Source: an uncultured bacterium (GTDB lineage: Bacteria; Bacillota; Clostridia; Lachnospirales; Lachnospiraceae). Taken from it: a stretch of 64,000 nt of DNA. The notes under the pieces were generated by a model. It did no database searches, had not been told where the DNA came from, and saw only the letters and a list, made by a program, of their open reading frames with translations. Positions 22,721-44,636 of the stretch are shown piece after piece; position 1 is the first letter of the stretch; each line of letters opens with the position of its first letter. The translations under genes were made by a program, and so were the position numbers. The stretch lies in contig CANSLJ010000024.1 of assembly GCA_947647735.1 (NCBI GenBank), positions 1 through 64,000 on the forward strand, written 5' to 3'.

Positions 22721-22723
22721 ACT

Positions 22724-23635
22724 CTATTCCTCCAGATAGCGCTGCGCTGTGCGAATAGTTTTCTTTAACTGTACCATGACTTCTACAAAAGCTTCTTCCT
22801 CATCCAAAACAGAAAGTCGTCTGTCCGAAAGAAACTGGAAAAGCAGCTCTCTGATCTCTGTCTCCAGCTCATCAGCCCTCACAGAATTTTCTTTCAAATA
22901 CAGTAATATTTCCTCCAAACTTCTACAAAAATGCTCTCGTTCAGGGAACGTTTCCCGTATTCTATTCTCTTCCTCCATTTGGCGAGCCTTCTCATGTACA
23001 AACGCTTCCTGCTCCCCGGCCCTCCATTCCTCCACAGAAGCCCCCAGTTCTCTCAGTTTTTCTTCTTCTAACGCTTCCCAACTTTCGATCTCCACCAGCA
23101 TCTGCTTCTCTGAATCCTCCGTCATCTCAGGTTCCTCCGATCCGGGATTCAGCAGAGCGAGATCGATTTCTTTTTGTTCCAATATTTCATAGAGTATCCG
23201 CATAAAGTATACGATATCCACATCCAGAAGTTCACTATGCACACCCTGAAAAGAAGACACAACATCGAAAAATGTAATCTTCTCCGGTTCCCCAAAATCT
23301 GTCACATTTCCATTCTGGTAATGCGTATATCCTGCGGTCAGCGTGCGCAGTACACAATACAGCAGTTTCCGGTAAAATGGAAATTTATGCAGATATCCTG
23401 CATGATCAAAGGTATGTATCCGCTGATAGTGTTCCTCATCTATCACCTGTTCGACAAACACATTTGTCTGCTCCTCTGAATAATCGCCCCAATAATCTGA
23501 CAGGTATTCCCATATGCGGATATTCCCGCCGTACATCAGGCGTTTCAGGCTCTTCAATTCTCTTTCCAGAACCCGTCGGCGGCTTTTTACCGCATACTTT
23601 CTGTCTTCGTCATAGGCTTGTTTTTCTCTGTACAC
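22724..23635 (-). CDS. Unknown acidic helical protein, first gene of a two-gene unit
   Basis: No family is recognised. The frame is open from 23815, but its first 60 codons cross a terminator hairpin (23740-23778) and a promoter (23685-23713). I therefore place the start at GTG 23635, with AAAGGAAAAGAG upstream, giving 303 residues. The protein is Glu-rich with long predicted helices, especially about 185-303 (EEEKLRELGASVEEW...), and aromatic-rich around 80-125 (HKFPFYRKLLYCVLRTLTAGY). It has no signal peptide. It may assist the neighbouring FtsK-like operon; that is inference from location only. Confidence 0.65.
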   Translation of the reverse strand: MYREKQAYDEDRKYAVKSRRRVLERELKSLKRLMYGGNIRIWEYLSDYWGDYSEEQTNVFVEQVIDEEHYQRIHTFDHAGYLHKFPFYRKLLYCVLRTLTAGYTHYQNGNVTDFGEPEKITFFDVVSSFQGVHSELLDVDIVYFMRILYEILEQKEIDLALLNPGSEEPEMTEDSEKQMLVEIESWEALEEEKLRELGASVEEWRAGEQEAFVHEKARQMEEENRIRETFPEREHFCRSLEEILLYLKENSVRADELETEIRELLFQFLSDRRLSVLDEEEAFVEVMVQLKKTIRTAQRYLEE

Positions 23636-23684
23636 TCGTCTCTTTTCCTTTCCCAAATCCGGCTGATCGCGAAAATATAATTTT

Positions 23685-23713
23685 ATATTAGAGTTGTTTT
23701 CTGTGGTTGTCAA
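23685..23713 (-). promoter_or_regulatory. Promoter of the 22724/21443 gene pair
   Basis: On the minus strand, -35 TTGACA (23708-23713), 17-nt spacer and -10 TAATAT (23685-23690) lie about 50 nt before the proposed GTG start and just after the terminator of the upstream operon. It lacks the palindrome found at the other island promoters. Confidence 0.6.
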
Positions 23714-23739
23714 ATAATTTGAGAAATCGTGTATCAGAC

Positions 23740-23778
23740 AAAAAATTCCGGAATTCCGTTTTTGTGCTGGAATTCCGG
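23740..23778 (-). terminator. Terminator of the FtsK-motor operon
   Basis: On the minus strand CCGGAATTCC (23769-23778) pairs perfectly with GGAATTCCGG (23748-23757), then ATTTTTTG. It starts about 30 nt after the stop of the last zinc-ribbon gene. Confidence 0.85.
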
Positions 23779-23807
23779 AGCCTTTCATTTTATTGACCCA
23801 AAATTTA

Positions 23808-24407
23808 TTATCCAAATATCACATCTAAATACTTTTTCGTATCGTCTTCCATATCATCCTCAAAATGTTCTTCAAAAAACTCTTCACTCCTGTCTTTATT
23901 GACGATATTACAATTCACATACCCGGCTTTATCAAATGAAAGACGTAATCGCTCACTGCCATCCACTGCTTCAACAAACTTAATACTTCCTGAAGATGTC
24001 ATCCCTACGCCTTCTACAGTCTCAAGATATATATCCGCCGACTCCTCTGCCTTTTCCAGATCCCCCTCAAAATAATATACTTTTCCCCATGTATTCAGGA
24101 AGAACATCACTTTCTCTTCCTCTATTCGCATCACTCCATACTCACCGGCTTCTTCTAACGCATAGATATAATACCCGGAATACTCATTTTTGCTCTTGCT
24201 GATAAAAAGCATAACCACTACTGCCGCTGCTACAGCAATCAGTCCGATTGCCGCGATCCATTTTTTACTCTTCCCTTTGTTCTTCCCTCTGTTTTTCTCT
24301 GTTCTACCATTGTCCTTCGGTTTTTTTATCTCTTCCACCGGCGCCCCGCATTCAGGACAATATTGTGTCCCAGCCTCGAGTTGTCCGCCACATTCTTTAC
24401 AAAACAT
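23808..24407 (-). CDS. Zinc-ribbon membrane protein with a short ectodomain
   Basis: The N-terminal zinc ribbon has Cys3/Cys6 (CKEC) and Cys17/Cys20 (CPEC), then a Lys/Arg-rich linker and one membrane helix (about 50-69). An extracytoplasmic acidic domain starts YSGYYIYALEEAGE. Topology is zinc ribbon in, ectodomain out. The ectodomain matches the N-terminal ectodomain of the 24969-26513 product (shared pattern SGYYIYA, AGE, EESA, YLE), so the two are paralogues. It is the last gene of the operon before a terminator. Function is unknown. Confidence 0.75.
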   Translation of the reverse strand: MFCKECGGQLEAGTQYCPECGAPVEEIKKPKDNGRTEKNRGKNKGKSKKWIAAIGLIAVAAAVVVMLFISKSKNEYSGYYIYALEEAGEYGVMRIEEEKVMFFLNTWGKVYYFEGDLEKAEESADIYLETVEGVGMTSSGSIKFVEAVDGSERLRLSFDKAGYVNCNIVNKDRSEEFFEEHFEDDMEDDTKKYLDVIFG

Positions 24408-24459
24408 CTTTTATCTCCTTTATCGTTTATACTTATATTTCTTTGTCCCTATCTCAACT

Positions 24460-24858
24460 TTACTCCAATTTTGTTCCGCAGTGCACACAGAATTTTGCCC
24501 CTTCCGCCAACGGCTTTCCGCATTTCGAGCAATAACCATGACTTCCGTCAGCGCCAGGGACAGCCGCCTCCAGCTTTAATGTAACGGCTGCCGTCTCTGC
24601 TTTTGTACTTTCAATCTGCTGCTTTATTTCCGCTATCTGTTCTTCCGCCTTTTTGATTTCCTCCACCACTTCTTTCATATTTTCATCCGGATTTTCTTTA
24701 TAGAAAGAATAATACTCCTGTCCAGCCCTTAAATACATTTTTTGTATTTCCTTCTGCAGATTGGAAATCTTCCCATTCATTGCTACAATGTCGTAATTTC
24801 CTTTCGCCTTTTGTCCTACTCCACTCACAAAGTTTGACATTCCATCTTTAAATCCCAT
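24460..24858 (-). CDS. Small coiled-coil protein with a C-terminal zinc ribbon
   Basis: The 132-residue protein has an N-terminal region (MGFKDGMSNFVSGVGQKAKG), a coiled coil at about 30-100, and a C-terminal zinc ribbon CSKCGKPLAEGAKFCVHCG. I start at ATG 24858, preceded by GAGAGGAAGG; a longer frame to 24900 has no matching signal. It has no membrane segment. It lies between the two zinc-ribbon membrane genes, and the matching ribbon types suggest a shared partner or assembly. Confidence 0.75.
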   Translation of the reverse strand: MGFKDGMSNFVSGVGQKAKGNYDIVAMNGKISNLQKEIQKMYLRAGQEYYSFYKENPDENMKEVVEEIKKAEEQIAEIKQQIESTKAETAAVTLKLEAAVPGADGSHGYCSKCGKPLAEGAKFCVHCGTKLE

Positions 24859-24968
24859 TTTTCCTTCCTCTCTCTTTTGAATTATTTTATATGTCCACAT
24901 ATCAGATGCTTAAAACAGAACTGAAATCGCAAGGACATTTTCTCTCTACTTTTCCATTTACAGATAGT

Positions 24969-26513
24969 TCATTCCTCAAATGGCAGGGGAATGATAACAT
25001 CCTCCCACTCACCATAAACCTGAACACTCATCTGTATCTCAATCGGCTCATCATTTGGAATCTCCGCTTTTTTACGGATACCTTCCGCCGTATCCTCAAG
25101 GCGTAAAACAGCAACACCGCCCTCTCTTTTTATGCGACCGTTGGAATACCCATATGTTTTATACTCTTTTACCTTTTTCCCATTAATTAACCACGGATTC
25201 TCCAGGCCTGACTGAATACAATATTCATTATTTACCCCATCTTCTGCTCCCATATTCCTCAAAACCACAGTAAACCCATCTGCATCTTGCTTATAATATA
25301 CTTCACATGTCGTTTTCTCCGCTTCCACTTCAAGTTCACATATTTTTTCACCATATGCTTTTTCCAAATTGCCTTCCTGATATTTGGAAGTTTTCAGGAT
25401 CGTGCAGCCGCTTACTAATTCACTGTCACTTCCCACCTGTATCTTGTAATAGAACCCTATCGTCTCCACGGGATATGATTTAAAATCCTGATTCAACCTC
25501 TTTACTGCTTCTTGATAATCATCACTAAATAAACCATCCGCCAGCCAGATTTCTTTGCTGCTGTTCCCTCCTGCTTCTATATAATCAAATCGCAGATCAC
25601 CATAATATAAATCACCTTCTATTCCATTAAAAGTGATCGCAGATACTTCAAATCTCAATTTTTTATTATCAGGGTTATTATTCATGATACTGATAACAGG
25701 CGAATCATCGGAAGAAACATAACCACGATCCTCATAATGTGCAAGCCATTCATCGATCGCAACATTTTCTAACGTTATCGTCACCCCGTCCTGATCATAG
25801 ATCGTAAAATTTTCAGTTTCAAAAAACTCTTCCATTTCGTTCTGTGACTCTTCCTGGTCCTCGGATGCATATACATCTTTCTCATCCCCATCCTGTTTAA
25901 TAACCATACTTTCAGATTTTCTTTCAGGCTCTACTTCCGCAATTCCTTCCTCCTCATATCCTTCCCCCTTTTCCATGTCCTCCGCTATAAATTTTTCAAT
26001 AAATTCCCTGTATTTTTCTTCGCTGACAATATGACATTTTCTATCTCCCCACTTATCTATTGAAATCTGTAACCTGTCACTGTCATCCGCCAATTTAATA
26101 AATGTAATGGTCCCCAAAGCTGTCATTTCTCTATCCTTCGGATTTTCAAGATATAGATATGCAGATTCTTCTTCCTCCTCCAGATAGCCATCCAAACAAT
26201 ACGCATTCCCCCATTCATTCACATAAAATGTAACATCATCTTTGTCTACGCTCATCGCCACAAACTCACCTGCATCTTCCGATGCATATATATAATAGCC
26301 GGAATATTTATGATTGCCGCTCTGTATAAAAATCACGGCGATCACCACTGCCACTGCCAAAATCAAACCAAGTGCTATGATCCCTATAATCCCTTTTTTA
26401 CTCTTCCTTGTATCGTTATATTCCTCCTCGTTCCTCTCTTCTACAGGAGTTCCACACTCAACACAAAACTTTGCCCCTTCCTCCAGTTTTTCCCCACATG
26501 TTTTACAGAACAT
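24969..26513 (-). CDS. Zinc-ribbon membrane protein with a large ectodomain
   Basis: The N-terminal ribbon has Cys3, Cys6, Cys17 and Cys20. A membrane helix lies at about 41-64. The extracytoplasmic part has two portions. The first (about 68-175) is paralogous to the 199-residue protein at 23808-24407. After an acidic linker (about 190-235) comes a beta-rich domain (about 240-514) with NFTIYDQDGVTITLENV, of the DUF5067-like immunoglobulin-type style; that assignment is only a resemblance. The start overlaps the FtsK-like gene's end by 11 nt, so the operon is coupled. Confidence 0.75.
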   Translation of the reverse strand: MFCKTCGEKLEEGAKFCVECGTPVEERNEEEYNDTRKSKKGIIGIIALGLILAVAVVIAVIFIQSGNHKYSGYYIYASEDAGEFVAMSVDKDDVTFYVNEWGNAYCLDGYLEEEEESAYLYLENPKDREMTALGTITFIKLADDSDRLQISIDKWGDRKCHIVSEEKYREFIEKFIAEDMEKGEGYEEEGIAEVEPERKSESMVIKQDGDEKDVYASEDQEESQNEMEEFFETENFTIYDQDGVTITLENVAIDEWLAHYEDRGYVSSDDSPVISIMNNNPDNKKLRFEVSAITFNGIEGDLYYGDLRFDYIEAGGNSSKEIWLADGLFSDDYQEAVKRLNQDFKSYPVETIGFYYKIQVGSDSELVSGCTILKTSKYQEGNLEKAYGEKICELEVEAEKTTCEVYYKQDADGFTVVLRNMGAEDGVNNEYCIQSGLENPWLINGKKVKEYKTYGYSNGRIKREGGVAVLRLEDTAEGIRKKAEIPNDEPIEIQMSVQVYGEWEDVIIPLPFEE

Positions 26514-30188: not shown

Positions 30189-30214
30189 AATCTCTCACTT
30201 TCTGCTGCAGAACT

Positions 30215-32569
30215 CTATCCCCTCTGCTCCACCAATGTCAAAGCATTCAGATCCACTCGATAGATCATTCCATTATTCTGTTCAGCTTTCTCGATCAGAT
30301 AATTCCAACTCTCACCGCTCTCCGTCTCTCTCTCTGAGACCAGAAAGATCGGAAGAAAACCAAAATCGGCATAATTGTCTCTCTCCAACAAGTTTTTCAT
30401 TTGCTGCAACCTCGAAACATTGCCCGTTTTCATTCCCAGTTTTTGTTTCTCATCTTCATTGGGAACTACTATAAACACAATATGATAAGGTTTCTTAGCC
30501 GCTTTATTTTTCAGCAAGGAAATATTAACCTGCTGTATAGGCGTCACAGAATCACCCAAACTTTCCTCATAGTCCTGTTTTGCCCTCATGACAGCCTCAT
30601 AATTTATGCGGGCATACTCCTGGATATCATCCTGCTCCCGCTCAATTTCTTTATCCAGTCTTTCGATATCCGCCTCCTCAAATAAGCCTTTTACGGGATT
30701 TCTTATTTCTTCTCTCACGACAAAGCCTTTTTGGTAAGCTTGAAAAAACTCCTTTCGCCTTTCGCTTGGATTTCCAATTTTTCCCCTCACCAATCCACTG
30801 GGATCTATCACAGAAAAATCTAACAGCTCCGCAGGAACCATTTTCGTAAACCCATGCCAGATCTCACTGATCAAATTAATAGCTCCCTCCTCCTTCCAGT
30901 TCGCTTCCCCTGCATATTTGAAAATCATCGGATACATATTATGTCTGATAATCTGAGGATGCCCATTTTCCGGATCTTCATAATTTCGAATACAGATCTG
31001 GCTGCTGAACAGAATTGTCTTCTCATCAAGTTTTGGAAAACAGCTTTCTGCATCAGATAACCAGACTTTTAATTCTCCGCTGTAATAATTTATCTCAGCA
31101 CTGATATCATCACACGCCGCCCTTATCTTTTGCATCTGGCTCCCGCACTTTTCCTGTTCTTTATGCAAATGTTCTATGGCACCCTTCAATCTATTCTGCT
31201 CCTGTTTTAGATAGCGCAAAGTCATCTTGTCTTCTTCCAGATAATCGTCTTCATCAATCACAACAGGAATTGTCGGCATATCATATTTCTTATTGTCTAT
31301 TTCCCTCAGTTCCTCACGGAGTTCAAAATCTATTTTTTCTTTTTCCCGCTTTCCACTCTCCTGTATCTCCCATTTTTTATTCCCACACTCCTCTATCGCT
31401 TTTTTAATCCTTATTCTTTGGTCTGCGATCATATTTGCTCTGCTGGCCGCCATTTGCCGTAGTCTCCATACTCGGTTCTTTTCCTCTGCTTCCAGCTCCT
31501 CTATTCGCTCCCACAAAGCTTTCGAATAATTATGCAATGCATTCTTATACAATCTTCTTCTATGAATTGGCTCTATGATCAATATTTTTACTAAAATTGA
31601 CGCTCCCCATGCCATGATCAGGCTGAGCATTATAATACCGATACTGGAATAATTATAAAGAACAGAAGACAAAATATCTTTGAACAAGCCTGAAATCGCG
31701 ATCAATAAAGCAGATATTATGACACTCCTTTTTATCATCTTTTCCCAAAAGGAACCGCCTCGGGATAAAAACATTATGACGCTGACCAGATACCCGATTC
31801 CTCCGCAGCAACAAATTCCTATTACCACATATTGAGCCGGCATACAAAAAAACCCCGGCGTTCTTTTATCTAATTCTACTGCTATATATTTTCTTAAAAC
31901 CAATATAACCAGAAAAAATATTCCGCTGATCACGAGCTGTAATAATAAAATTTTCCTGTCAGGTTTCCACCTGTCAAATTGATCTGAAACTTTCTTTCTC
32001 CCGCTTTTCAACTCTTGTTCTTCTGTGCGGAGAGTCTGCAGCTCCACAGCCTTTTCTCTCGGCATCGCGGGTATTTCAGGAGTATCCATTCCTTCCAGAT
32101 TTGAAAGCTCATTCTGCCAGTATGTAATCTTATTTTCTATCTCCGCCAATGCTGCCGCTTCATCCTGATCACAAATTTGTTTTTTTGACTCTGCCTGCTC
32201 ACAAGCAGCCTGTTTTTGATATTCGATATCAGCCAGCTCCTGTTCCCTTATCTGCTCCCACCTTTCCCGGGTATTCTCGGGTGCCTCTTCCTTTTTATTT
32301 TGATATTCTTGTGCCAGCCTATTCTTTTGTTCATGGCAATCCTGTAATTCTCTTACTATTTGTTCACGCTTATTTTTGACAGCAAAAAATTCTTGTTCTT
32401 TCTGCTCCTTTTTTCTACAAGCGTCCTCATAACAATCTTGATTTTTCAAATATTCCTCGTATTCTCTCCCACCCCGCACTTCTGGTTCTTTAACAGCAGA
32501 TTCTTTCATCTCTTTTTTCGAGTCAATTTTCCTTTGTCCTTTCAGGCTCTCAAAAAAATTTTCTTCCAT
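30215..32569 (-). CDS. Membrane coiled-coil protein with a degenerate FtsK-like C-terminal domain
   Basis: This 784-residue protein is the first gene of the operon. In order: a Lys/Glu-rich coiled coil (about 35-155), four membrane helices (about 207-225, 246-268, 282-300, 308-331), a second coiled coil (about 345-520), and a C-terminal domain (about 545-784). The last has INLISEIWHGFTKMVPAELL, FSVIDPSGLV and PYHIVFIVVP. The FxxIDPxGL pattern resembles the inactive first domain of large FtsK/SpoIIIE-type proteins that also carry a coiled coil. I infer that such a protein is split here, with the active motor at 26503-28698. There is no P-loop. Confidence 0.72.
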   Translation of the reverse strand: MEENFFESLKGQRKIDSKKEMKESAVKEPEVRGGREYEEYLKNQDCYEDACRKKEQKEQEFFAVKNKREQIVRELQDCHEQKNRLAQEYQNKKEEAPENTRERWEQIREQELADIEYQKQAACEQAESKKQICDQDEAAALAEIENKITYWQNELSNLEGMDTPEIPAMPREKAVELQTLRTEEQELKSGRKKVSDQFDRWKPDRKILLLQLVISGIFFLVILVLRKYIAVELDKRTPGFFCMPAQYVVIGICCCGGIGYLVSVIMFLSRGGSFWEKMIKRSVIISALLIAISGLFKDILSSVLYNYSSIGIIMLSLIMAWGASILVKILIIEPIHRRRLYKNALHNYSKALWERIEELEAEEKNRVWRLRQMAASRANMIADQRIRIKKAIEECGNKKWEIQESGKREKEKIDFELREELREIDNKKYDMPTIPVVIDEDDYLEEDKMTLRYLKQEQNRLKGAIEHLHKEQEKCGSQMQKIRAACDDISAEINYYSGELKVWLSDAESCFPKLDEKTILFSSQICIRNYEDPENGHPQIIRHNMYPMIFKYAGEANWKEEGAINLISEIWHGFTKMVPAELLDFSVIDPSGLVRGKIGNPSERRKEFFQAYQKGFVVREEIRNPVKGLFEEADIERLDKEIEREQDDIQEYARINYEAVMRAKQDYEESLGDSVTPIQQVNISLLKNKAAKKPYHIVFIVVPNEDEKQKLGMKTGNVSRLQQMKNLLERDNYADFGFLPIFLVSERETESGESWNYLIEKAEQNNGMIYRVDLNALTLVEQRG

Positions 32570-32707: not shown

Positions 32708-32736
32708 ATTATACTCAATATATTGAGTTTAGTCAA
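32708..32736 (-). promoter_or_regulatory. Island promoter 1: palindrome within the spacer (FtsK-motor operon)
   Basis: On the minus strand, -35 TTGACT (32731-32736), 17-nt spacer and -10 TATAAT (32708-32713). The perfect 16-bp palindrome ACTCAATATATTGAGT (32713-32728) fills the spacer and touches the -10, an ideal repressor site. This belongs to the 406-nt gap 32570-32975, which also holds the leader hairpin and the CAP-gene terminator; 32737-32855 shows nothing else. Confidence 0.8.
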
Positions 32737-32855
32737 TATCCTATTCTTTTTCGAAAAATCCTCCATCCTCATTCTGAAAATAAAGTCATTGACTGCGCGC
32801 TGCTCTTTTTATTTCCGACAGGCATGCTTTTCATCTTCTGTCTGCCTCCCCAACG

Positions 32856-32896
32856 CAAAAGACGTATGGCCTACTATGTACTATTTTCCATACGTC
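32856..32896 (-). terminator. Terminator after the CAP-domain gene
   Basis: On the minus strand GACGTATGG (32888-32896) pairs with CCATACGTC (32861-32869), an 18-nt loop between, then TTTTGCG. It lies 80 nt after the CAP gene stop. Confidence 0.7.
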
Positions 32897-32975
32897 CTTG
32901 CGCTGCTATGTCGATTCCTGCCTATATTATTTCAAATCCCTGATATATAAAAGTTATACTCGGTTTTATATAATC

Positions 32976-33872
32976 TTAGTCTGTAAAGCATTGTGTCCAG
33001 TAAATGCCATATCTACCATTTCCCTGGTAACACCCTACTCCAATATGATGAAAGTTGTCACTCAAAATATTTGCTCTATGCCCCGCAGAATTTAACCATG
33101 TTTGCATAACAGCTTCCGGTGTCTGCATGCCTGCTGCAATATTTTCACCTGCGTAACCATATTTCGCTCCACTTTCTTCAAATGCTGTATAACAGGAGGA
33201 TCCATCCGGCCTGGTATGACTAAATAAAGTTTCCAATTCTCCTGCACGAACCTGTGCCGCATTCCTCAGCGCTGATGTCGTCGTAAGACTATCAAGGCCA
33301 TTCTCCGCACGAACTTTATTGACAAGCCTGACCACTTCATCCTCAAATCCTGCAGTACTTTCCTGAGGAGAATTCGTGGTATTGTTGTCAATATATATTT
33401 CTGTCGGATTACTATTATTTTGAATAATGTTATAGAAGAGATCCGTAAAATCTACAGTTATAACATTTTCGTCCGATATAGTCTCACTTGTCGTAGTTTC
33501 ATTTGCGATACGGCCTTCTGCTTTCCCGTTTGTGATGTAATGCAGATAGTAGTCAGGAAGATTTTCGCCGAATGCAGCCTGCAGGTCAGCATATTTTGTT
33601 TTATAAGACATCACATTAAATTCCTCATTTCCCTGACGTCCTTCTGTCATACCATGATTCAGAAAATGATTTAACAATAATCCGCTGTCGTTGCCAAAGG
33701 CTGTGTACAGATCAGGATTATGGCTTGCATAATATGTACTGTCAAACACAGCCGCATAGGCAGTCTCATTCCCTGAAGCCGCCTGCGCCGGAAGAGCTGT
33801 CAGTACAACCATTATCACCGCCGCAAAAACGGGCACAACCTTCATTAAAATCTTTACACGTTGTCTTTCCAT
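32976..33872 (-). CDS. Secreted CAP (SCP/PR-1-like) domain protein
   Basis: The 298-residue protein has a signal peptide (about 1-32, ending PAQAASG). Two tandem ~45-residue modules follow at about 42-130, each with a Y...NPDL/KYADL-AAFG...LxHxxxxGxxEGR pattern seen in many Lachnospiraceae surface proteins. The CAP domain spans about 175-298, with HTRPDGSSC, GENIAAG, GHRANIL and the final YWTQCF. The CAP-domain His and Glu positions appear intact. It is expressed from a palindrome-bearing island promoter and ends at its own terminator. The role is probably extracellular; the ligand is unknown. Confidence 0.9.
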   Translation of the reverse strand: MERQRVKILMKVVPVFAAVIMVVLTALPAQAASGNETAYAAVFDSTYYASHNPDLYTAFGNDSGLLLNHFLNHGMTEGRQGNEEFNVMSYKTKYADLQAAFGENLPDYYLHYITNGKAEGRIANETTTSETISDENVITVDFTDLFYNIIQNNSNPTEIYIDNNTTNSPQESTAGFEDEVVRLVNKVRAENGLDSLTTTSALRNAAQVRAGELETLFSHTRPDGSSCYTAFEESGAKYGYAGENIAAGMQTPEAVMQTWLNSAGHRANILSDNFHHIGVGCYQGNGRYGIYWTQCFTD

Positions 33873-33973
33873 AATCGTTTCTCCTTTTCCCTAAACTATT
33901 CAGGCATTTGTTATATACAAGAACCTTTTCCTGAGATTTTACCGAGTTCCTTTTATCTTGTATATTCTCCCTC

Positions 33974-34002
33974 ATTGTACTCAATATATTGAGTTTAGTC
34001 AA
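33974..34002 (-). promoter_or_regulatory. Island promoter 2: palindrome within the spacer (CAP gene)
   Basis: On the minus strand, -35 TTGACT (33997-34002), 17-nt spacer and -10 TACAAT (33974-33979). The spacer holds the identical perfect palindrome ACTCAATATATTGAGT (33979-33994). It lies about 100 nt upstream of the CAP start and 10 nt past the stop of the preceding gene. Confidence 0.8.
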
Positions 34003-34011
34003 TACGCGACT

Positions 34012-35079
34012 TCAAGCAAAAATATCAATATTCTTAAGATCCCTAAAAAACTTTTTATGCATCTCTTCTCTTTCTTCCACCTCTTCCGGGGTAATACTGT
34101 AATACTGGCGGACAGGTGCATTCTCATCCTGCGCACTGAACTTTTTCATATAGGTAACCATATCCAGATATATCTCTACGATCCGATAACCGATATCCAT
34201 TGTTTCGTCTTTTTCCAGACAAAGGACATACTCCATTCCTGAATACCGACAGAGCACAGAGTCTTCATGCCGTGCGACAATATCCAATGTATCTCCATCG
34301 TCATGTCTCAATACGATTTCTTTCTCCGTATTATCACCGCTTAGCCACTCGATAATCGTTTCCTCATTTTCCCTTAAAAGCATCATGATCGCTTCTTCTT
34401 CACATGTTCTGCTGATAATGTCAGCAACAGTTGAACTTATATAGCGTCTTCCATCTCTTTTCCTGTCATATTCCAAAGCTTCCTCTTCCGTCATCTCCTC
34501 CTCCTTCGATTTCGGTAAAGAAGCCTCCCTGCCTCCAATGCCTGCTTTCTCCCCGTCGGCAGCATCTTCATATATATCTATACCCGCCTCATATATATCG
34601 TTTTCTTCATCCCCCGTTTCCTCATACTCCTCCCAATCCACCACATCATACTCATCAATCAACAGCTCCTCATCCTCTTCATCAAACATAAATTCCATCC
34701 CCCTGGAACTGTTTTCATACAGATACCAATCCGATTCGGTGTAGAGATCTCCCTTCTTCCCTCTATGCGCATCCCATTCTTCCTTCATTTCCCGGTAATC
34801 CTGTTCCTCATGAGCAGCCTGAATATCCATGTCATACTCGATATAGGGCAGCAACGCGTAAAGCGCGTCCCTTTCAAAGCAGGACACAAAAAACTTTCCA
34901 TACTCTAGTTCCTCTTCTGAAAAGCTTTTTCGGACCTCCTCCGGTACATTATCATTCTCCAAAAATTCCCACCCACTTTCGCCCGAAATTTCCAATGCAA
35001 ATTTCAGTTCACTGCTGTGCCAGTCCGGAATAAACATATAACTTTTCTGGGTTGTTCTCATCTTCTTAAAATCAATCAT
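34012..35079 (-). CDS. Unknown very acidic protein
   Basis: The 355-residue protein is not recognised. It has no signal peptide. The middle (about 125-200) is extremely rich in Asp/Glu/Tyr (DEEDEELLIDEYDVVDW...). The C-terminal third has a short beta-rich stretch (IVLRHDDGDTLDIVARHEDS, about 262-281) and a helical end. It overlaps the 75-residue gene upstream by 8 nt, so the pair is coupled. Acidic proteins next to secreted proteins can be immunity or chaperone factors, but nothing here proves that. Confidence 0.65.
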   Translation of the reverse strand: MIDFKKMRTTQKSYMFIPDWHSSELKFALEISGESGWEFLENDNVPEEVRKSFSEEELEYGKFFVSCFERDALYALLPYIEYDMDIQAAHEEQDYREMKEEWDAHRGKKGDLYTESDWYLYENSSRGMEFMFDEEDEELLIDEYDVVDWEEYEETGDEENDIYEAGIDIYEDAADGEKAGIGGREASLPKSKEEEMTEEEALEYDRKRDGRRYISSTVADIISRTCEEEAIMMLLRENEETIIEWLSGDNTEKEIVLRHDDGDTLDIVARHEDSVLCRYSGMEYVLCLEKDETMDIGYRIVEIYLDMVTYMKKFSAQDENAPVRQYYSITPEEVEEREEMHKKFFRDLKNIDIFA

Positions 35080-35299
35080 TCTGTGCCTCCTCTTTCATCT
35101 TCTTCTGAAAAAATTTCACAAAGTCCTTCTCCTGACAGGCAATGCATTCCTTTGCCCATTCCATAACTTTATCTCTCATCATTTTAAATTCTATATTGGG
35201 AACCGATTCGAGCGTCTCTGCAACTCCCCACATTCTTGCAAAGAAGATGGCGAGTTCATATACCTTAACATCCACCTTTTCATTTTGATCTCCTTGCAT
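35072..35299 (-). CDS. Small unknown protein
   Basis: The 75-residue helical protein (KVYELAIFFARMWGVAETLES...) has a clear Shine-Dalgarno (GGAGGG 6 nt upstream of ATG 35299) and overlaps the next gene by 8 nt. There is no signal peptide or known motif. It contains two cysteines in the segment ECIACQEKDF. It forms a two-gene unit with the acidic 355-residue protein; the shared palindrome at 35389-35405 is upstream. Confidence 0.6.
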   Translation of the reverse strand: MQGDQNEKVDVKVYELAIFFARMWGVAETLESVPNIEFKMMRDKVMEWAKECIACQEKDFVKFFQKKMKEEAQND

Positions 35300-35388
35300 C
35301 TTTGCCCTCCTTATTTACCTTTTCCTGACGATTTTTCTCTGCACTTATCTTTGCTTCCTGTATACTGTAACTCTTTCACTCTGATTTG

Positions 35389-35405
35389 TTCGGAAAATTT
35401 CCGAA
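35389..35405. promoter_or_regulatory. Second palindrome type, copy 1 (possible operator)
   Basis: The 17-bp sequence TTCGGAAAATTTCCGAA has 8-bp arms and a 1-nt centre. The same sequence on the opposite strand occurs at 39482-39498. This copy lies between the divergent 75-residue gene and the transglutaminase-like gene. Confidence 0.5.
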
Positions 35406-35453
35406 AAATATTTTTATATTTTATATACTTTATAAAAATTCGCGTTGCATCAG

Positions 35454-35482
35454 TTGACTACACTCAATATATTAAGTATAAT
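35454..35482 (+). promoter_or_regulatory. Island promoter 3: palindrome within the spacer (transglutaminase-like gene)
   Basis: On the plus strand, -35 TTGACT (35454-35459), 17-nt spacer, -10 TATAAT (35477-35482). The spacer holds ACTCAATATATTAAGT (35462-35477), one mismatch from a perfect palindrome. It lies 47 nt upstream of the ATG. Confidence 0.8.
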
Positions 35483-35528
35483 ACAACTGTAAAAACATGC
35501 AATATTTTCAAGAAAAGGAGTGAAAAAA

Positions 35529-36218
35529 ATGAACAGCATGAAAACAAAACTAAAAACCGTCATCGCTACAGCATTGGTGGCCACAACGACACTCAGTACG
35601 AGCCTGACAGCCCTCGCGGCACCAAGAGAAGATCTGTATGGCCCCATTACAGCAGTAACACCAGGCGGTGTCAACGTATATGGCTATTACATTGACCATC
35701 CTTTCAAACCAATTAAACCTGTACCTGCTGTATACCTGAATGCTATCGACGCAGCAGGCATCACGAACGAAATGAGCGATATGGAGAAATGTATACGCGT
35801 CAACAACTATCTCTGTGCAGCCATCAATGGTGCCGACGACAGCGAGTTTTTCACAAATCCGGCTTGGCTTATCGAAAAACCGCTCGCAGAAGGTGAGTTC
35901 GCACTGACAACAGGTAACGGTGTATGCCGGCACTATGCAGACGCATTTGTAAACATAGTCGGCAGCCTCGGTATCGAATGCAAATACATACACAGCACAA
36001 TGATGAACCACGCTTGGAATGAGGTTGTCATCGACGGTGTAACCTATTACAACGATGCATACTGGAATGACTGCCGTGGAGGCAACGGATGGAGTGATGC
36101 AGTTGCAGGTGATACCTACCTGATGAGCCCTGTGCTCTGGGAAAACCATGCATATCCAGATATTGAAGAGCCAGGCATCATAGACGGCTCCATTATACCC
36201 GTACCCATACAGTATTAA
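35529..36218 (+). CDS. Secreted transglutaminase-like (papain-fold) protein
   Basis: A signal peptide (about 1-31, ending LTALAA) precedes a transglutaminase-like core. The catalytic triad can be read as Cys133 in GNGVCRHYADAF, His161 in MNHAWNEVVI and Asp176 in YYNDAYWND. It could cross-link or hydrolyse amide bonds in extracellular proteins or peptidoglycan. I chose ATG 35529, 8 nt after AAGGAG; a GTG at 35520 overlaps that signal. It is the only large plus-strand gene in the island. A palindrome promoter drives it and a terminator follows, so it is monocistronic. Confidence 0.87.
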   Translation: MNSMKTKLKTVIATALVATTTLSTSLTALAAPREDLYGPITAVTPGGVNVYGYYIDHPFKPIKPVPAVYLNAIDAAGITNEMSDMEKCIRVNNYLCAAINGADDSEFFTNPAWLIEKPLAEGEFALTTGNGVCRHYADAFVNIVGSLGIECKYIHSTMMNHAWNEVVIDGVTYYNDAYWNDCRGGNGWSDAVAGDTYLMSPVLWENHAYPDIEEPGIIDGSIIPVPIQY

Positions 36219-36248
36219 AACCATAACAAACAGTACGATGACAATAAG

Positions 36249-36276
36249 ACACGGTAGAGCAATCTGCCGTGTTTTT
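36249..36276 (+). terminator. Terminator after the transglutaminase-like gene
   Basis: ACACGGTAGA pairs with TCTGCCGTGT (one mismatch) over a 4-nt loop, followed by TTTTT, 30 nt past the stop. Confidence 0.8.
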
Positions 36277-36378
36277 GCGTCTAGTAAACCAATCCCATAA
36301 AAAGAGATGTCACACCCAGCAGATACGGCCATCCCATGCTAAACATCACGGACGCTGCCAGCATTGCATCACTGAACG

Positions 36379-36407
36379 CCATTACACTCAACATATTAAG
36401 TATATCC
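36379..36407 (+). promoter_or_regulatory. Island promoter 4: palindrome upstream of the small XRE gene
   Basis: ACTCAACATATTAAGT (36387-36402) is a diverged copy of the island palindrome, with -10 TATATC (36402-36407) in the same register. The -35 position (GCCATT) is poor, so this promoter is weak or activator-dependent. It sits about 50 nt upstream of the XRE gene. Confidence 0.6.
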
Positions 36408-36458
36408 AACAAAAGAAATGTGATATTTTTGTAAGAAACAGAAAGAGAGGTTCCCGAT

Positions 36459-36662
36459 TTGATTTCTTACAAACCCTTTTACAACACCTTATTTCAAAAA
36501 AATATCACCGAATACGAACTGATCTTCAAACACGGCATATCCGCCAACACCCTGTACCGCATGAAAAAGGGGGAAGCGATCACCACGAAGACGCTGGACA
36601 CGTTCTGTTTCATCCTTGACTGTTCCGTATCCGACGTCCTCGAATATGTAAAGCCGGACTGA
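36459..36662 (+). CDS. Small XRE/Cro-C1-type DNA-binding protein
   Basis: The 67-residue protein is a stand-alone helix-turn-helix (ITEYELIFKHGISANTLYRM, then KTLDTFCFILDCSVSDVLEY). The start is TTG 36459, 7 nt after AGAGAGG; no ATG fits. The coding DNA is the only regulator gene within the island. It is preceded by a copy of the palindrome found at four other island promoters. I infer it may bind that palindrome and repress itself and the others. A similar small XRE is at 54980-55177. Confidence 0.75.
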   Translation: MISYKPFYNTLFQKNITEYELIFKHGISANTLYRMKKGEAITTKTLDTFCFILDCSVSDVLEYVKPD

Positions 36663-36667
36663 CCGCC

Positions 36668-37963
36668 TTATATAGCTTCCAACACCTCTCTTTCTCCCCC
36701 ATCCCTTCCGCCCGGAACATAAGCCATATCCTCGGATGCCGCCCTGCCCCGCAAAGTCTCCAATGTGCTGTAGGGCTTTATCTTATCCACCAGTCTCGCC
36801 TTCTCCCCGTTTGTCAGAAGATACGCCTTGTCTGCAGGTTTACAGAGGATCACCTCCGGTGTTTTATATGCCCTGCAGCCGATAAATTCGGCGGTAGCTG
36901 TGTCCTGACACCCCAGATAGAGCAGATGGTCACAGTTATTGATGATGGTAGTTGCCGCCGCGTCATCGTACATACTGGTCAGCTGCGTCATGCTCTGGAG
37001 GATCAGACTGACGGAGATCCCTCTCGAGCGGATCACAGAGATCACCTTGTCAAAATCGGGAATCCTCGCGCTGGTGGCAAAATCATCCATGATGATGCGG
37101 ACTGGTACGCTCAGCCTTCCGTCCTCCTTTTCGTCCGCCTCCGAACAAAGGAGGTGCAAAGCCTGTGTATAAAAGACATTGACGATATCGTCCAGCGACC
37201 TGTCCGTATCGTTGACGTTTAAAAACAATACCGTCTTTTTTCGCCCAAGGCTTCTGATATCCAGACAATCATTGTTCTCGAAAATATGCCTTGCCTCCCG
37301 GAAGTCAAAAACCTCCAGCGCTCTGTTCGCAAATTCGACGATACAGCTCCATGTCCTATCTGCATCCATGATCCCCCGCAGCTTATAGAATTTTTTCGCA
37401 GCATAGCTGTCCGGATGAGCGTCTATCCATTTGACAAAGGAGAGGTCTCCCTTTTTCCCGATAAAGGTTCTGTGAAGCTCACAGATGCTTCCCATATGTT
37501 GTTCCTCCTCCGGCAGAGAATCCAAAGCAAAAGCAAGCAGAAATGCCAGATAAGAGGCTGCCGCCCTGTCCCAGAAGGGTTCTCTCGTATCGAGGGACGG
37601 CATCAACGTATTCGCCAAAGTGAGTACATCCTGCTCCCTGTAGCCACCGTTTTTATAGCGCCTGATCCCTTTAAGCGGATTATACCCGCAGGATCGCTCG
37701 GGATTCACAAGATCCAACGTATATACATGATATCCCTCCCTGATCAGATTTTTTGCAAATTTTCGCTCCAGAGTGCCCTTGGTATCCGATACCACCAGGC
37801 TCCCCTCTATATTCTGAAGGTTCGGGATCACATAGCCTCCCGTTTTTCCCGCTCCTGAGGAGCCGATGATCAGATCGTTATTGTTCAGCCCTGTCACCCT
37901 CGTATCGTTGGACACGCTGATCCCCTCCGCCAGAATCCTCTCGTTTTTCCTTCTGTTTTCCAT
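36668..37963 (-). CDS. TraG/VirD4-like ATPase lacking membrane segments
   Basis: Residues 34-41 (GSSGAGKT) are Walker A, followed by VVSDTKGTLERKFAKNL, the T4CP pattern. IIMDDFATSARIPDF is the Walker B/TraG region and SLILQSMTQL the C-terminal T4CP signature. Conjugative coupling proteins are usually about 600 residues with an N-terminal membrane domain; this one is 431 residues with neither. No relaxase or mating-pore gene is visible, so it is not an intact conjugation module. It follows the ClpP-like gene by 7 nt and is the last gene of its operon, converging on the XRE gene. Confidence 0.82.
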   Translation of the reverse strand: MENRRKNERILAEGISVSNDTRVTGLNNNDLIIGSSGAGKTGGYVIPNLQNIEGSLVVSDTKGTLERKFAKNLIREGYHVYTLDLVNPERSCGYNPLKGIRRYKNGGYREQDVLTLANTLMPSLDTREPFWDRAAASYLAFLLAFALDSLPEEEQHMGSICELHRTFIGKKGDLSFVKWIDAHPDSYAAKKFYKLRGIMDADRTWSCIVEFANRALEVFDFREARHIFENNDCLDIRSLGRKKTVLFLNVNDTDRSLDDIVNVFYTQALHLLCSEADEKEDGRLSVPVRIIMDDFATSARIPDFDKVISVIRSRGISVSLILQSMTQLTSMYDDAAATTIINNCDHLLYLGCQDTATAEFIGCRAYKTPEVILCKPADKAYLLTNGEKARLVDKIKPYSTLETLRGRAASEDMAYVPGGRDGGEREVLEAI

Positions 37964-37970
37964 ATTTTTT

Positions 37971-38567
37971 TTATTCTCCTTTCAGGTCTCTTGTGTCTGT
38001 TATGATCTTTGTGGCGAGCCCGAACGCCACCGCTTCCTCCGCGCTGTAATAAGTGTCTTCCGCTGTGACCTCATAGATTTCCTCGAGGCTCTTTCCCGTC
38101 TTTTCGGAAATGATCTTCGCCAGCGCTTCTTTTGTCTCATTGAGTTTATCCAGCTCCTGCTGGATCTCATGGGGCTTGCGTCCGCCGATATTATGACTGC
38201 CGAAGGAGGGATCGTGGATCATCAGCCTTGTGTGTGGCAGCATCCTACGGTTTTCACCCGCCAGAAACAGGATCGCACCCATACTGGCGGCAATGCCGAT
38301 GCAAACAGTGTTGACAGGCGCCTCCATCAGCTGAATATAATCATATACCGCCAGTCCGCTGATCACCTCGCCGCCCGGGGAGTTGATATAGAGCATAACC
38401 GGCTCGCTGCTGTCCTCCTGCTCCAGATACATAAGCTGTTTGATCAGCTCATTGGCACTGGCGGCGTCAACCGCATCCACCAGAAATATCGTTCTGTTTT
38501 TCAGCATCTCGTCCTCGATGCGCACTGCCTCCATTCCGCGAACGGTTTCTTTTAAAATATTTGCCAT
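37971..38567 (-). CDS. ClpP-family serine protease (accessory paralogue)
   Basis: The 198-residue protein has the ClpP fold and catalytic triad: Ser95 in GIAASMGA, His118 in LMIHDP and Asp171 in TAEDTYYSAEEA. It differs from housekeeping ClpP in the variable positions around the triad (HD instead of HQ; AEDTYY instead of RDNF). Its N-terminus starts MANILKETVRGMEAVRI. It lies between an unknown protein gene and the TraG-like ATPase gene, not near clpX. A housekeeping clpP is expected elsewhere in the genome. It may form mixed or dedicated proteolytic rings; that is inference. Confidence 0.88.
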   Translation of the reverse strand: MANILKETVRGMEAVRIEDEMLKNRTIFLVDAVDAASANELIKQLMYLEQEDSSEPVMLYINSPGGEVISGLAVYDYIQLMEAPVNTVCIGIAASMGAILFLAGENRRMLPHTRLMIHDPSFGSHNIGGRKPHEIQQELDKLNETKEALAKIISEKTGKSLEEIYEVTAEDTYYSAEEAVAFGLATKIITDTRDLKGE

Positions 38568-38587
38568 CTGTCATCCTCCTGTATTTT

Positions 38588-39379
38588 TCATCCACAACAC
38601 GATTCCCCGATAAACCACGAACCATATTTTCCCAAAATGTACTCCATCGTGAACTTTTCCGGATATAAATACCGAAAAGGTTCTATCAGCAGGCAGTCCA
38701 GTATTTCATAGGCATTCAGTATCCGTTCTTCATAGTACTCTATGGTATCACCGGGGGACCAGGACTGATTCCGGATCTTCTCCGTCTGCCCGAAAATATC
38801 CTCCATGGTGGAGTTGCAGTCTATCTCCAGTTCCAGCAGATCCGCCTTCTCATAGAACTCATTTTGAAGCTCCTTGATCCATTCCCTCTCCTCCTCCTCT
38901 TTGTCTTCTCTGACAAGATCCTCAACTTCAAGATAATAGAACAGTGCCCGGATATTGATGGCGGAAAACATCCGGAACAGATTGCTTGTTTCCTTTCCCC
39001 GCGCCAACAGATGGTTCACAAGCACCATGCAGGGATACCACATTGGCGCTCTCATACGAAAAGCAAGGCTGATATTGACGGCGTTGCCATAGGCGGAATA
39101 CTTTCTGTTCCCCTCCAATTTCGTACTGTCGATCAAAAACAACAGCTCCAGAAAACCGAATTCTTTCATGGTTTCATAATCCTGTTCCAGTCCATATTCT
39201 TCATTTAATATCGTCTGCGCAAGGAGCTTTACATTCTCCTGCACATCTTCATCCACCATATTGTCCACTTCCGCCAGCGTCAAGTCGAAAAATCTTTTCA
39301 GAATATTCTTAATATCACATACTCTGTCAATATAGCCTTTACGGGAATATCTCATCAGTTCTCTTAATATGCCTGCCAT
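38588..39379 (-). CDS. Unknown protein, first gene of the clpP/traG-like unit
   Basis: The 263-residue helical protein is not recognised. It has no signal peptide and ends FIGESCCG. I start at ATG 39379 (MAGILRELMRYSRKGYI) with AGGAAAGAAG upstream; the frame is open further but crosses the promoter and palindrome. A TATAAT -10 lies about 80 nt upstream. It is followed 20 nt later by the ClpP-like gene. It may be an adaptor or substrate, but nothing in the sequence shows it. Confidence 0.62.
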   Translation of the reverse strand: MAGILRELMRYSRKGYIDRVCDIKNILKRFFDLTLAEVDNMVDEDVQENVKLLAQTILNEEYGLEQDYETMKEFGFLELLFLIDSTKLEGNRKYSAYGNAVNISLAFRMRAPMWYPCMVLVNHLLARGKETSNLFRMFSAINIRALFYYLEVEDLVREDKEEEEREWIKELQNEFYEKADLLELEIDCNSTMEDIFGQTEKIRNQSWSPGDTIEYYEERILNAYEILDCLLIEPFRYLYPEKFTMEYILGKYGSWFIGESCCG

Positions 39380-39457
39380 CGTTTTATCTTCTTTCCTGTG
39401 CCGGATTTTTCTGATCTTCTCTTCTTTTCTGTGTCTCTCAAAAGAAGTTATGATGTT

Positions 39458-39498
39458 ATTATACGCAGGTGGATGTGATGGTTCGGAAATTTTCCGAA
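39458..39498 (-). promoter_or_regulatory. Promoter of the clpP-like unit with the second palindrome type
   Basis: On the minus strand a -10 TATAAT (39458-39463) is preceded by TTCGGAAAATTTCCGAA (39482-39498), which covers the -35 region. The -35 hexamer (CCGAAC) is poor, so activation through the palindrome is possible. The same 17-mer is at 35389-35405. Confidence 0.5.
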
Positions 39499-39649
39499 AC
39501 CAGATATTTGAGAAGAATACTGATATTTTCGAGATTTGCGAAAATCTTGTACTCCCGCAGATATAACAATGTTTTACAGCATACAAAAAAGACCGCAAGC
39601 AAATGCTCACAGCCTTTTGTTTTACATACTAATACTCTATATGTACTGT

Positions 39650-40225
39650 TTATTTTTCATTCAAAATATGCTGCACTGCCCCCCATTCGATCACAGGCAC
39701 ATTTTTCTGACTTACCGTGGCAGTCTGTTTCTTCTTGTTCCCGATCTTCACCATATTGATGATCAGGCTTCCTGCTGCCAGTACCAGAAACAGAGCCCCA
39801 GCGCCGATGGCGATCGTCATGGCATTGTCTACGCCTGAGAAGAAATAACAGCCTGCAGCAACGATGATGCCGACGATGATCAGAACGATCGGCGTACCAA
39901 ACATCTCATCCTTCATACCGCTGACAGCCCAAGACTGCGGCTTATGACAGTGCGGACATTCGTCTTTGAACGCCTTGTTGAATATCTGCTTTTCTGTGGC
40001 GTTCTTGTGTGCTTCCTTCACGGCGCTCACGAGATTTTTATGAGCCTGTTCGTTCAGTTTCTGCTGTTTGTTATACTCCAGCTCTCTGTAATTGCTGTTG
40101 ATCTCTGCCTCCATGCCGGAAATGGTTGCTTTCAGCGGACCGCTGTCCTTCATGCACTGTTCACAGCGGAATGAATACGGCACATCGATCGTCTCGGTTT
40201 TTTTGTGTCTGTAATAAGTACCCAA
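39650..40225 (-). CDS. Membrane protein with a putative zinc site
   Basis: The 191-residue protein has Cys pairs CEQC (about 21-24) and CPHC (about 90-93) that could form one zinc site. A coiled region lies between them, and two membrane helices follow (about 112-128 and 135-157). The metal-binding part should be cytoplasmic. Function is unknown. A promoter with -35 TTGATT and -10 TATAAT lies upstream at 40285-40312. Confidence 0.65.
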   Translation of the reverse strand: MGTYYRHKKTETIDVPYSFRCEQCMKDSGPLKATISGMEAEINSNYRELEYNKQQKLNEQAHKNLVSAVKEAHKNATEKQIFNKAFKDECPHCHKPQSWAVSGMKDEMFGTPIVLIIVGIIVAAGCYFFSGVDNAMTIAIGAGALFLVLAAGSLIINMVKIGNKKKQTATVSQKNVPVIEWGAVQHILNEK

Positions 40226-40284
40226 TTTCGGTTTCCTCCTGCATATAAATGATTTTACTGATGGGAAATATCCCTTTTGATTTT

Positions 40285-40312
40285 ATTATACCCCCCCAAT
40301 GTTTGAAATCAA
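40285..40312 (-). promoter_or_regulatory. Promoter of the 39650-40225 gene
   Basis: On the minus strand, -35 TTGATT (40307-40312), 16-nt spacer containing a 7-G run, -10 TATAAT (40285-40290). No island palindrome is present. Confidence 0.55.
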
Positions 40313-40500
40313 GTATAAAAACAGGTACAATCAGGATTGTTTCACGAATCATCACAAATATCTTTGTTCAATCAGAGCTGCCGCACTGCCCTGGAAAACC
40401 CATACTCTTAGTTCTTTTAATTTCTCTCTGTTCTCAAAAACAGAGAGCTTAAAATATTCGTATATTCTTCGCTGTGCTGACATTCACTGGTATACACATT

Positions 40501-40740
40501 CTATATTCGTTTTTGTACGAAGTCGGCAAAACCTTCTGTCTCGAAATATGTACCATCGCTTTCTTTAATGCGGACTGTTTCGGTTTTTCGTTTTTCATAC
40601 CATTCATTTGTACCCATGCCGTATACGATATAATGAATATTGTTGCGCTCCAGTACATAACGCAGGAAATCGCTGCAACCGGTATGTTCCATATAATACA
40701 TATCTTTTGTATTAACATTATTCAAGTTTCCTTTCTGCAT
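40501..40740 (-). CDS. Small unknown protein
   Basis: The 79-residue product contains CSDFLRYVLERNNIHYIVYG and ends FADFVQKRI. It has no known motif or membrane segment. ATG 40740 has GAAGGTGG about 7 nt upstream, better than the GTG at 40749. It follows the 129-residue gene by 57 nt and is probably co-transcribed with it. An alternative frame on the same strand overlaps it but lacks a start signal. Confidence 0.5.
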   Translation of the reverse strand: MQKGNLNNVNTKDMYYMEHTGCSDFLRYVLERNNIHYIVYGMGTNEWYEKRKTETVRIKESDGTYFETEGFADFVQKRI

Positions 40741-40797
40741 TTTTTCCACCTTCAGCCGACATTTACTGATGGCACGCCATTTTCCTCCTCGTTTTTC

Positions 40798-41187
40798 CTA
40801 AACCTCTTCTGGCATTTCCAACAGGATCCTTTTATCTTCTGGGAAGTATTCATTCACTATCTGCTGTATTTCCTGCATGACGGCTTCCGCGTTCTCCAAC
40901 TGCTTTATCAGACCGGGAATATCTTTCTGGTAATAAATGAATTCAAAGGGGTTGGGCTGAACGACCATATCAAAATCCAGTAAAACCATCTTGACAAAGG
41001 ACATGCCTTTCTGTTTTAAATAAACGGCGGCCTTGCTGCCTTTCAGTCTACCTTCGCTGAAATCTTTCGGATAGTCTTCAGCGTAACATATCTTCAGTTC
41101 CCCGCCGCTTTCCGTTTTGTATATTACCCATGCGTTCACCTTTCTGTGCATATTATTCTTTATCAAGGTAAAGGGTTTTTCCTGCAT
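40798..41187 (-). CDS. Unknown protein under a palindrome promoter
   Basis: The 129-residue protein looks alpha/beta (KVNAWVIYKTESGGELKICY... then a C-terminal helix about 90-118). It has no signal peptide. Shine-Dalgarno GGGAGGAG is 8 nt before ATG 41187. It is the first gene after island promoter 5, so it belongs to the putative palindrome regulon together with the downstream 79-residue gene. I cannot assign a function. Confidence 0.65.
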   Translation of the reverse strand: MQEKPFTLIKNNMHRKVNAWVIYKTESGGELKICYAEDYPKDFSEGRLKGSKAAVYLKQKGMSFVKMVLLDFDMVVQPNPFEFIYYQKDIPGLIKQLENAEAVMQEIQQIVNEYFPEDKRILLEMPEEV

Positions 41188-41229
41188 TTTTCACTCCTCC
41201 CTTTAAAACATGATGCAAATTACAGTTTT

Positions 41230-41258
41230 ATTACACTTAATATATTAGGTCTAGTCAA
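41230..41258 (-). promoter_or_regulatory. Island promoter 5: palindrome within the spacer
   Basis: On the minus strand, -35 TTGACT (41253-41258), 17-nt spacer and -10 TGTAAT (41230-41235). The spacer holds a two-mismatch copy of the palindrome, ACTTAATATATTAGGT on the plus strand (41235-41250). It lies about 45 nt upstream of the 129-residue gene. Confidence 0.7.
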
Positions 41259-44109: not shown

Positions 44110-44121
44110 CCTGTCTCCTCC

Positions 44122-44481
44122 CTACTTCCCTGTGCTGTCGATCATTTTCCGGATCTCGGAAACCTCTTTCTCACTGAGCGCTTTGCGCTTCGTAAACGCC
44201 GCAATAAAAGCCGGGAGCGATCCCTGAAAGGTCTCCTCCACGAACTGCTCACTCCTCAGCGCATAATATTCCTCTCTGGAGATCAGAGAAGTCACCTGCC
44301 TCTCCTTCATCTGAAAAATACCATGCTCACTCAGCTTCTTCAATACCGTGTAAGTAGTCGTCCTTTTCCACTGAAGTTCCTTCTCACATAACCGAATCAA
44401 TTCATTTGTCGTCATCGGCTCATGAGTCCAGATGATATCCGCAAAACGTGATTCCACTGCTCCCAGTTTATAATCTGTCAT
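44122..44481 (-). CDS. BlaI/MecI/CopY-family repressor
   Basis: The 119-residue protein is a winged helix (LGAVESRFADIIWTHEPMTT, RTTTYTVLKKLSEHGIF) with a C-terminal dimerisation helix. It is cleaved or displaced by the partner BlaR1-type protease in this family. It lies 12 nt upstream of the partner gene. Palindromes in its own promoter (44553-44565 and 44609-44625) suggest autorepression. Confidence 0.9.
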   Translation of the reverse strand: MTDYKLGAVESRFADIIWTHEPMTTNELIRLCEKELQWKRTTTYTVLKKLSEHGIFQMKERQVTSLISREEYYALRSEQFVEETFQGSLPAFIAAFTKRKALSEKEVSEIRKMIDSTGK

Positions 44482-44552: not shown

Positions 44553-44636
44553 ATCAGTAACTGATCTATTACATGTTATATTTCGTCTGTTGTCAGTAGA
44601 CACTTTTAGTCTATCATCGATAGACATCTCTGTCAA
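44553..44636 (-). promoter_or_regulatory. Promoter and operators of the blaI/blaR1-like pair
   Basis: On the minus strand, -35 TTGACA (44631-44636), 17-nt spacer and -10 TAGACT (44608-44613). The perfect palindrome GTCTATC-ATC-GATAGAC (44609-44625) lies in the spacer. A second, ATCAGT-A-ACTGAT (44553-44565), lies downstream in the leader. Confidence 0.65.

Follow-up and report, generated by a model that had tools for sequence, protein, structure and literature searches.

The window, a stretch of 64,000 nucleotides from the start of contig CANSLJ010000024.1 of an uncultured Lachnospiraceae bacterium (GCA_947647735.1), contains a gene island in which one 16-base palindrome, ACTCAATATATTGAGT, recurs in promoter regions, and in which a 67-residue regulator of the XRE family is encoded. 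The promoter elements and the regulator gene are located as follows:

32708..32736, minus strand: operator-promoter 1, TTGACT-AAACTCAATATATTGAG-TATAAT, 139 nt ahead of the start of the FtsK-motor operon
33974..34002, minus strand: operator-promoter 2, TTGACT-AAACTCAATATATTGAG-TACAAT, 102 nt ahead of the CAP gene
35454..35482, plus strand: operator-promoter 3, TTGACT-ACACTCAATATATTAAG-TATAAT, 47 nt ahead of the transglutaminase-like gene
36381..36409, minus strand: site 4, operator O1 of the XRE control region, TTGGAT, 17 nt, TGTAAT
36396..36424, plus strand: probable XRE promoter, TTAAGT (36396-36401), 17 nt, TGTGAT (36419-36424), from the alignment with 19 relatives
36459..36662, plus strand: 67-residue XRE regulator (TTG start) with a Cro/C1-type helix-turn-helix (PF13443), probable cognate repressor by sequence comparison
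41230..41258, minus strand: operator-promoter 5, TTGACT-AGACCTAATATATTAAG-TGTAAT, 43 nt ahead of the gene for a 129-residue protein

At sites 1, 2, 3 and 5 the 16-mer starts 2 nt past TTGACT and extends as far as the first base of the -10 box (TATAAT, TACAAT, TATAAT and TGTAAT, respectively), with a spacer of 17 nt and a distance to the start codon of 43-139 nt. The palindrome itself is matched without mismatch at 32713 and 33979, with one mismatch at 35462, two at 36386 and three at 41235. All five sites named in the original prediction are thus present, the fourth moving from 36387 to 36386; its description of the variants as differing by one or two bases holds for 35462 and 36386, but not for 41235. 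A common register with a 17-nt spacer had been proposed for all sites, with TTGACT at four of them. TTGACT with this spacer was found at four; the site at 36386 fits on the minus strand alone: a weight matrix built from the other four sites gave 28.9 bits for TTGGAT-17-TGTAAT on this strand versus 17.9 bits for the plus strand (-35 GCCATT, -10 TATATC). Read in promoter orientation, four sites act on the minus strand and one on the plus strand, instead of three and two. Contrary to the proposal, the palindrome beside the XRE gene is not contained in the spacer of the promoter that drives this gene. The XRE promoter, TTAAGT-17-TGTGAT, is placed by the 19 relatives 18 bp downstream of the plus-strand register at 36386, with the right arm of O1 as its -35 box, and that register was discarded as XRE promoter on the basis of both the scores and this alignment. 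The minus-strand promoter at 36381 is not directly followed by an annotated gene; it runs into the transglutaminase-like gene from its 3' end and could be either a relic or a source of antisense RNA.

Five matches with up to three mismatches in the window compare with 0.34 +/- 0.54 (largest 2) in 100 dinucleotide shuffles. The genome scan covered 4,105,696 bases on 63 contigs with a completeness of 86.55%, so that additional operator sites are possible. Allowing up to three mismatches, the composite of palindrome and promoter, TTGACTNNACYYAATATATTRAGTDYAAT, occurred at exactly five places in the whole genome, all of them in the island, and the reversed control at none, which agrees with the expectation that the palindrome is not scattered at random. 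ACTCAATATATTGAGT alone, with up to two mismatches, was found at six places, four in the island (reversed-pattern control: 0); the two others (C11, C13) are both asymmetric. An exact ACTCAATATATTGAGT was present in one of 145 related genomes searched, namely the present one. In G517, a second perfect copy of the 14-base core, on contig 31, falls within a reading frame and was regarded as a chance match.

The XRE protein passes the Pfam model PF13443 (HTH_26) with 51.2 bits (cut-off 22, residues 13-65), scores 21.6 bits with the VanU model, far under its cut-off of 150, and has 3tyr as the best credible match among solved structures (E 0.0017); the polyubiquitin chains ranked above it seem spurious. 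Homologues were searched in 397 family genomes, 341 class genomes and plasmid records, and the 45 delivered loci, including this one, were analyzed (30 from the family search, 14 new ones from the class search and one from a plasmid). With up to three mismatches and within 120 bp upstream, the palindrome is present in 17 of the 19 loci that reach 58% identity (16 of 18 if this window is left out) and in 3 of the 26 homologues below 58%. The association of palindrome and identity gave p-values of 2.7e-8 (Mann-Whitney) and 2.9e-7 (Fisher), which overstate independence since the relatives include close pairs (L072/L073, L076/L077) and a locus with an internal stop (L074). This comparison favors the XRE protein at 36459 as the shared regulator that had been suggested.

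The stretch SANTLYRM, which the fold leads us to take as the recognition helix, reads SSNTVHRL or SANILFRM in the three distant homologues with the palindrome. It is SSNTLRRM or SSNTLNRI in four homologues lacking the palindrome upstream (L035, L038, L039, L050), and distant clades have other upstream palindromes by eye, such as TTAACCGTTTTCGGTTAA together with SPGQITRL (L041). This co-variation of helix and palindrome, a pattern recognized after the fact, would fit a regulator having its own operator.

Aligning 20 XRE upstream regions from many genera to a hand-made 45-base template revealed a conserved 45-bp block, ATTAT-O1-AT-O2-ATGATA, which serves both the XRE gene and a divergent gene and in which the two operators are 18 bp apart. 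O1 is matched with at most three mismatches in 17 of the 20 regions and O2 with at most five in 15. In the relatives, O1 lies within the promoter spacer of the divergent gene and O2 within that of the XRE gene. An inverted repeat that overlaps the regulator's own promoter and is kept in relatives characterizes the class of autoregulated XRE repressors, and in this window O1 is kept with two mismatches. The composite with up to two mismatches was also sought in nine other genomes or records that have such an XRE. It was found at six places, five of them adjoining the XRE gene and the sixth on contig 14 of G029, ahead of an 824-residue lipoprotein-like gene; G296 had none. At three mismatches, five more places appeared, in G027 (beside XRE), G029 (one), G429 (two) and G171 (one). 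The place in G171 is 12 kb from the XRE gene and 33 nt ahead of an MBOAT gene, which is followed by an ALGX-like gene. With so few composites away from XRE in this small sample, four extra strong sites in one island are unusual. Secreted proteins are encoded near the XRE homologue of G171 (L099:3443-18502), where the MBOAT and ALGX-like operon has the three-mismatch operator in its promoter.

Taken together, the 67-residue protein is probably an autoregulated repressor whose strong operator-promoter also precedes four further transcription units in this genome, as judged from sequence alone. It would bind ACTCAATATATTGAGT-type operators, presumably as a dimer. The operator occupies the whole 17-nt spacer and reaches the two promoter boxes, a position from which we infer repression: with a dimer bound there, RNA polymerase should be shut out. 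In the relatives, the XRE protein would repress itself and the divergent gene via the O1/O2 region, with the XRE -35 box overlapping O1. In the present genome, O1 would have been kept beside the XRE gene while O2 decayed, and four O1-type operator-promoters would serve the FtsK-motor operon and the genes of the CAP, transglutaminase-like and 129-residue proteins, so that about five transcription units would form a local regulon. A protein of 67 residues leaves no space for a ligand or sensor domain, so induction would have to come from a falling repressor level, a partner or proteolysis. The promoters are near-consensus (TTGACT, TATAAT) and an activator should therefore not be needed.

The genes following the four target promoters are:

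30215..32569, minus strand: first gene of the motor operon, 784 residues, without a Pfam family; by eye it has coiled coils and stretches of hydrophobic residues
26503..28722, minus strand: FtsK/SpoIIIE-type ATPase, 739 residues (PF01580, 94.5 bits, cut-off 24)
21443..26513, minus strand: genes past the motor ATPase, encoding zinc-ribbon proteins of 514, 146 and 199 residues, then proteins of 363 and 425 residues
32976..33872, minus strand: secreted CAP-domain protein, 298 residues (PF00188, 76.1 bits), signal-peptide-like start by eye
35529..36218, plus strand: secreted transglutaminase-like protein, 229 residues (PF01841, 37.6 bits), signal-peptide-like start by eye
40798..41187, minus strand: 129-residue protein with no assigned function

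The genes at 21443..26513 are assigned to the motor operon from their direction and spacing. For the ATPase, identification as EssC/EccC of type VII secretion was rejected because both NCBIfam scores fall below the curated cut-offs (TIGR03924 EccCa, 93.7 versus 509; TIGR03928, 71.9 versus 778). For the 129-residue protein, comparison with the Pfam, NCBIfam and PHROG families gave nothing above cut-off. The FtsK-motor operon (19634-32569) adjoins ylxM/ffh-like genes.

In the relatives, the gene divergent from XRE also encodes a surface-type protein in several cases: a secreted protein with a Transglut_core match in G171 (L099; 24.2 bits, cut-off 23), SLH proteins of 1735 (L104) and 203 residues (L109), and BspA-type LRR proteins (L112, L116). 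Others encode an ECF-sigma-like protein (L098) or, by eye, a predicted transcription factor (L103). Signal-peptide-like hydrophobicity, by a crude count, was observed in 7 of 17 divergent genes versus 44 of 224 background frames (Fisher p 0.043; two starts, in L112 and L117, were miscalled, and for L100 and L105 no divergent gene was obtained), an enrichment that is suggestive only.

Several observations weigh against an autoregulated repressor with a local regulon. O2 is degenerate here (8 mismatches), as it is in L098, L099, L105 and L117 (6-9 mismatches), and autoregulation in this genome may therefore be weak. The 14-base core NCTYAATATATTRAGN, with up to one mismatch, occurs at seven places in the genome, five in the island and two elsewhere, versus three for the control, which means that the bare core is not specific; in several relatives it is not commoner than its reversed control either (G634, 4 versus 9). 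Since the composite is restricted to the island, the specific signal is the palindrome within its promoter setting. Two of the 18 close homologues fail the cut-off, L028 with four mismatches and L030 with five. Finally, relatives of the motor ATPase occur in at least ten other Clostridia-type genomes (ten examined, 38-53% identical), and these ten have neither this XRE by tblastn nor, by eye, the palindrome in a promoter spacer. The first gene of the motor operon was found in one of 299 family genomes, and the link between XRE and motor is local.

An alternative we regard as unlikely makes the XRE gene just one of the targets of a different regulator, which is encoded elsewhere and recognizes the palindrome. 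Direct binding by the XRE protein is deduced from comparing sequences, the genome has at least two further HTH_26 proteins (45-47% identical), and a BlaR1/BlaI pair adjoins site 5. However, the palindrome tracks the XRE clade, with the contrast between close and distant homologues given above, and a global regulator predicts sites away from XRE, where just one of the six composites with up to two mismatches lies in the nine other genomes or records. The two paralogues read DSHTLNDM and SSNTIRRM in the recognition-helix stretch and have, by eye, no such palindrome upstream. BlaI was rejected as the regulator, its gene being preceded by a different palindrome, GTCTATCATCGATAGAC.

Slightly less probable still is an activator, or a protein that represses some sites and activates others. 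Divergent regions with two operators are similar to phage switches that use one protein for both repression and activation. Here, though, the palindrome at the four target promoters takes up the 17-nt spacer and extends onto the first base of the -10 box, a location suited to occlusion; these promoters are near-consensus unaided, and O1 overlaps the -35 box at the XRE promoter. A third reading, in which no regulator is involved and the five sites stem from recent copying of a single promoter or represent an AT-rich promoter motif, is very improbable: the register is common, the core near-identical at four sites and a few bases past the -10 box shared by sites 3 and 5, but the similarity mostly ends at the edges of the 29-bp unit, such palindromes are kept in 20 control regions from many genera, and an ordinary promoter can do without a palindrome in its spacer.

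Under the preferred repressor model, relief of repression could involve a protein encoded in the island itself:

35072..35299, minus strand: 75-residue protein, possible XRE partner; its relatives are encoded tail to tail with XRE

This tail-to-tail arrangement is seen in G396, G171, G029 and G208, and the distance here is 1.2 kb; operator-promoter 3 sits between the transglutaminase-like gene and the divergent gene of the 75-residue protein, for which Pfam gave no match above cut-off. At 36668-38567, the genes of a T4CP/TraG-like ATPase and a ClpP-like protease stand next to each other, and in G396 such genes are also found beside the XRE homologue (45% identity each). The 75-residue protein and the T4CP and ClpP-like neighbors are candidates for relieving repression.

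A second palindrome, TTCGGAAAWTTTCCGAA, is located at 35389-35405, upstream of the gene of the 75-residue protein, and at 39482-39498, about 100 nt upstream of the probable ATG (around 39380) of the ClpP-like/T4CP gene cluster. Genome-wide, it is exact at these two places alone, with one further place at one mismatch and six at two (control: 1), and a second regulator reading TTCGGAAAWTTTCCGAA in the island is likely. Next to site 5, a BlaR1-like M56 peptidase and a BlaI-like repressor are encoded at 41284-44481, with GTCTATCATCGATAGAC at 44609-44625 upstream of the BlaI gene, and a second M56 protein at 47053-48315. Elsewhere in the window, a TwoAYGGAY RNA was detected at 5962-6128 (112.1 bits).

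More tentatively, and with doubtful odds for the idea as a whole, the clade of 65-70-residue HTH_26 proteins could be a switch that is widespread in Clostridia and controls surface and secretion genes. It would use portable 45-bp O1/O2 cassettes, the O1 half of which spreads to new promoters and forms local regulons, such as the four transcription units here and perhaps the O-acetyltransferase operon 12 kb from XRE in G171; the repressor might be relieved by the 75-residue partner or the neighboring ClpP-like protease.

Among known systems, MerR-type regulation shares a palindrome between the -35 and -10 boxes, but MerR-type promoters have spacers of 19-20 nt; here the spacer measures 17 nt at all four canonical sites and the protein belongs to HTH_26 instead of MerR, and this type was rejected. 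The same applies to the BlaI/MecI operator, whose core is TACA-NN-TGTA: the core here is AATATATT, and the BlaI gene is preceded by a different palindrome. Switches of phages and integrative conjugative elements (lambda CI/Cro, ICEBs1 ImmR) share the layout of divergent promoters and two operators. The composite site was found in no phage or viral contig, no close XRE relative was viral by tblastn, and the phage relatives were all below 60% identity (27 records), so a phage origin was discarded. The small XRE regulators of the HTH_26 family (YozG/VanU-like) share the family match, and their models name no operator or regulon for this clade. The literature searched, with poor coverage of subscription journals, held no description of the palindrome or regulon and none of an operator for the HTH_26 clade.

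According to excerpts of a published study, Aca repressors recognize one or two inverted repeats, one of which is always within the core promoter, and are presumed to exclude RNA polymerase (PMC9410906). The system described here resembles them, as far as these excerpts go, in its small helix-turn-helix protein and its inverted repeat in the core promoter (PMC9410906). It differs in that several separate transcription units are targeted and that repression is predicted; no acr gene was seen here, where no search aimed at anti-CRISPR genes was made. Judging from the same excerpts, repression via a core-promoter repeat is already known in principle (PMC9410906), and what we describe is a new regulon with a mechanism of known kind. 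It would place two secreted proteins and an uncharacterized operon with an FtsK-type motor under a single tiny regulator, the removal or overexpression of which would offer one handle to switch them together. It also gives a probable regulator-operator pair for the HTH_26 clade and an example of a cis autoregulatory operator growing into a local regulon.

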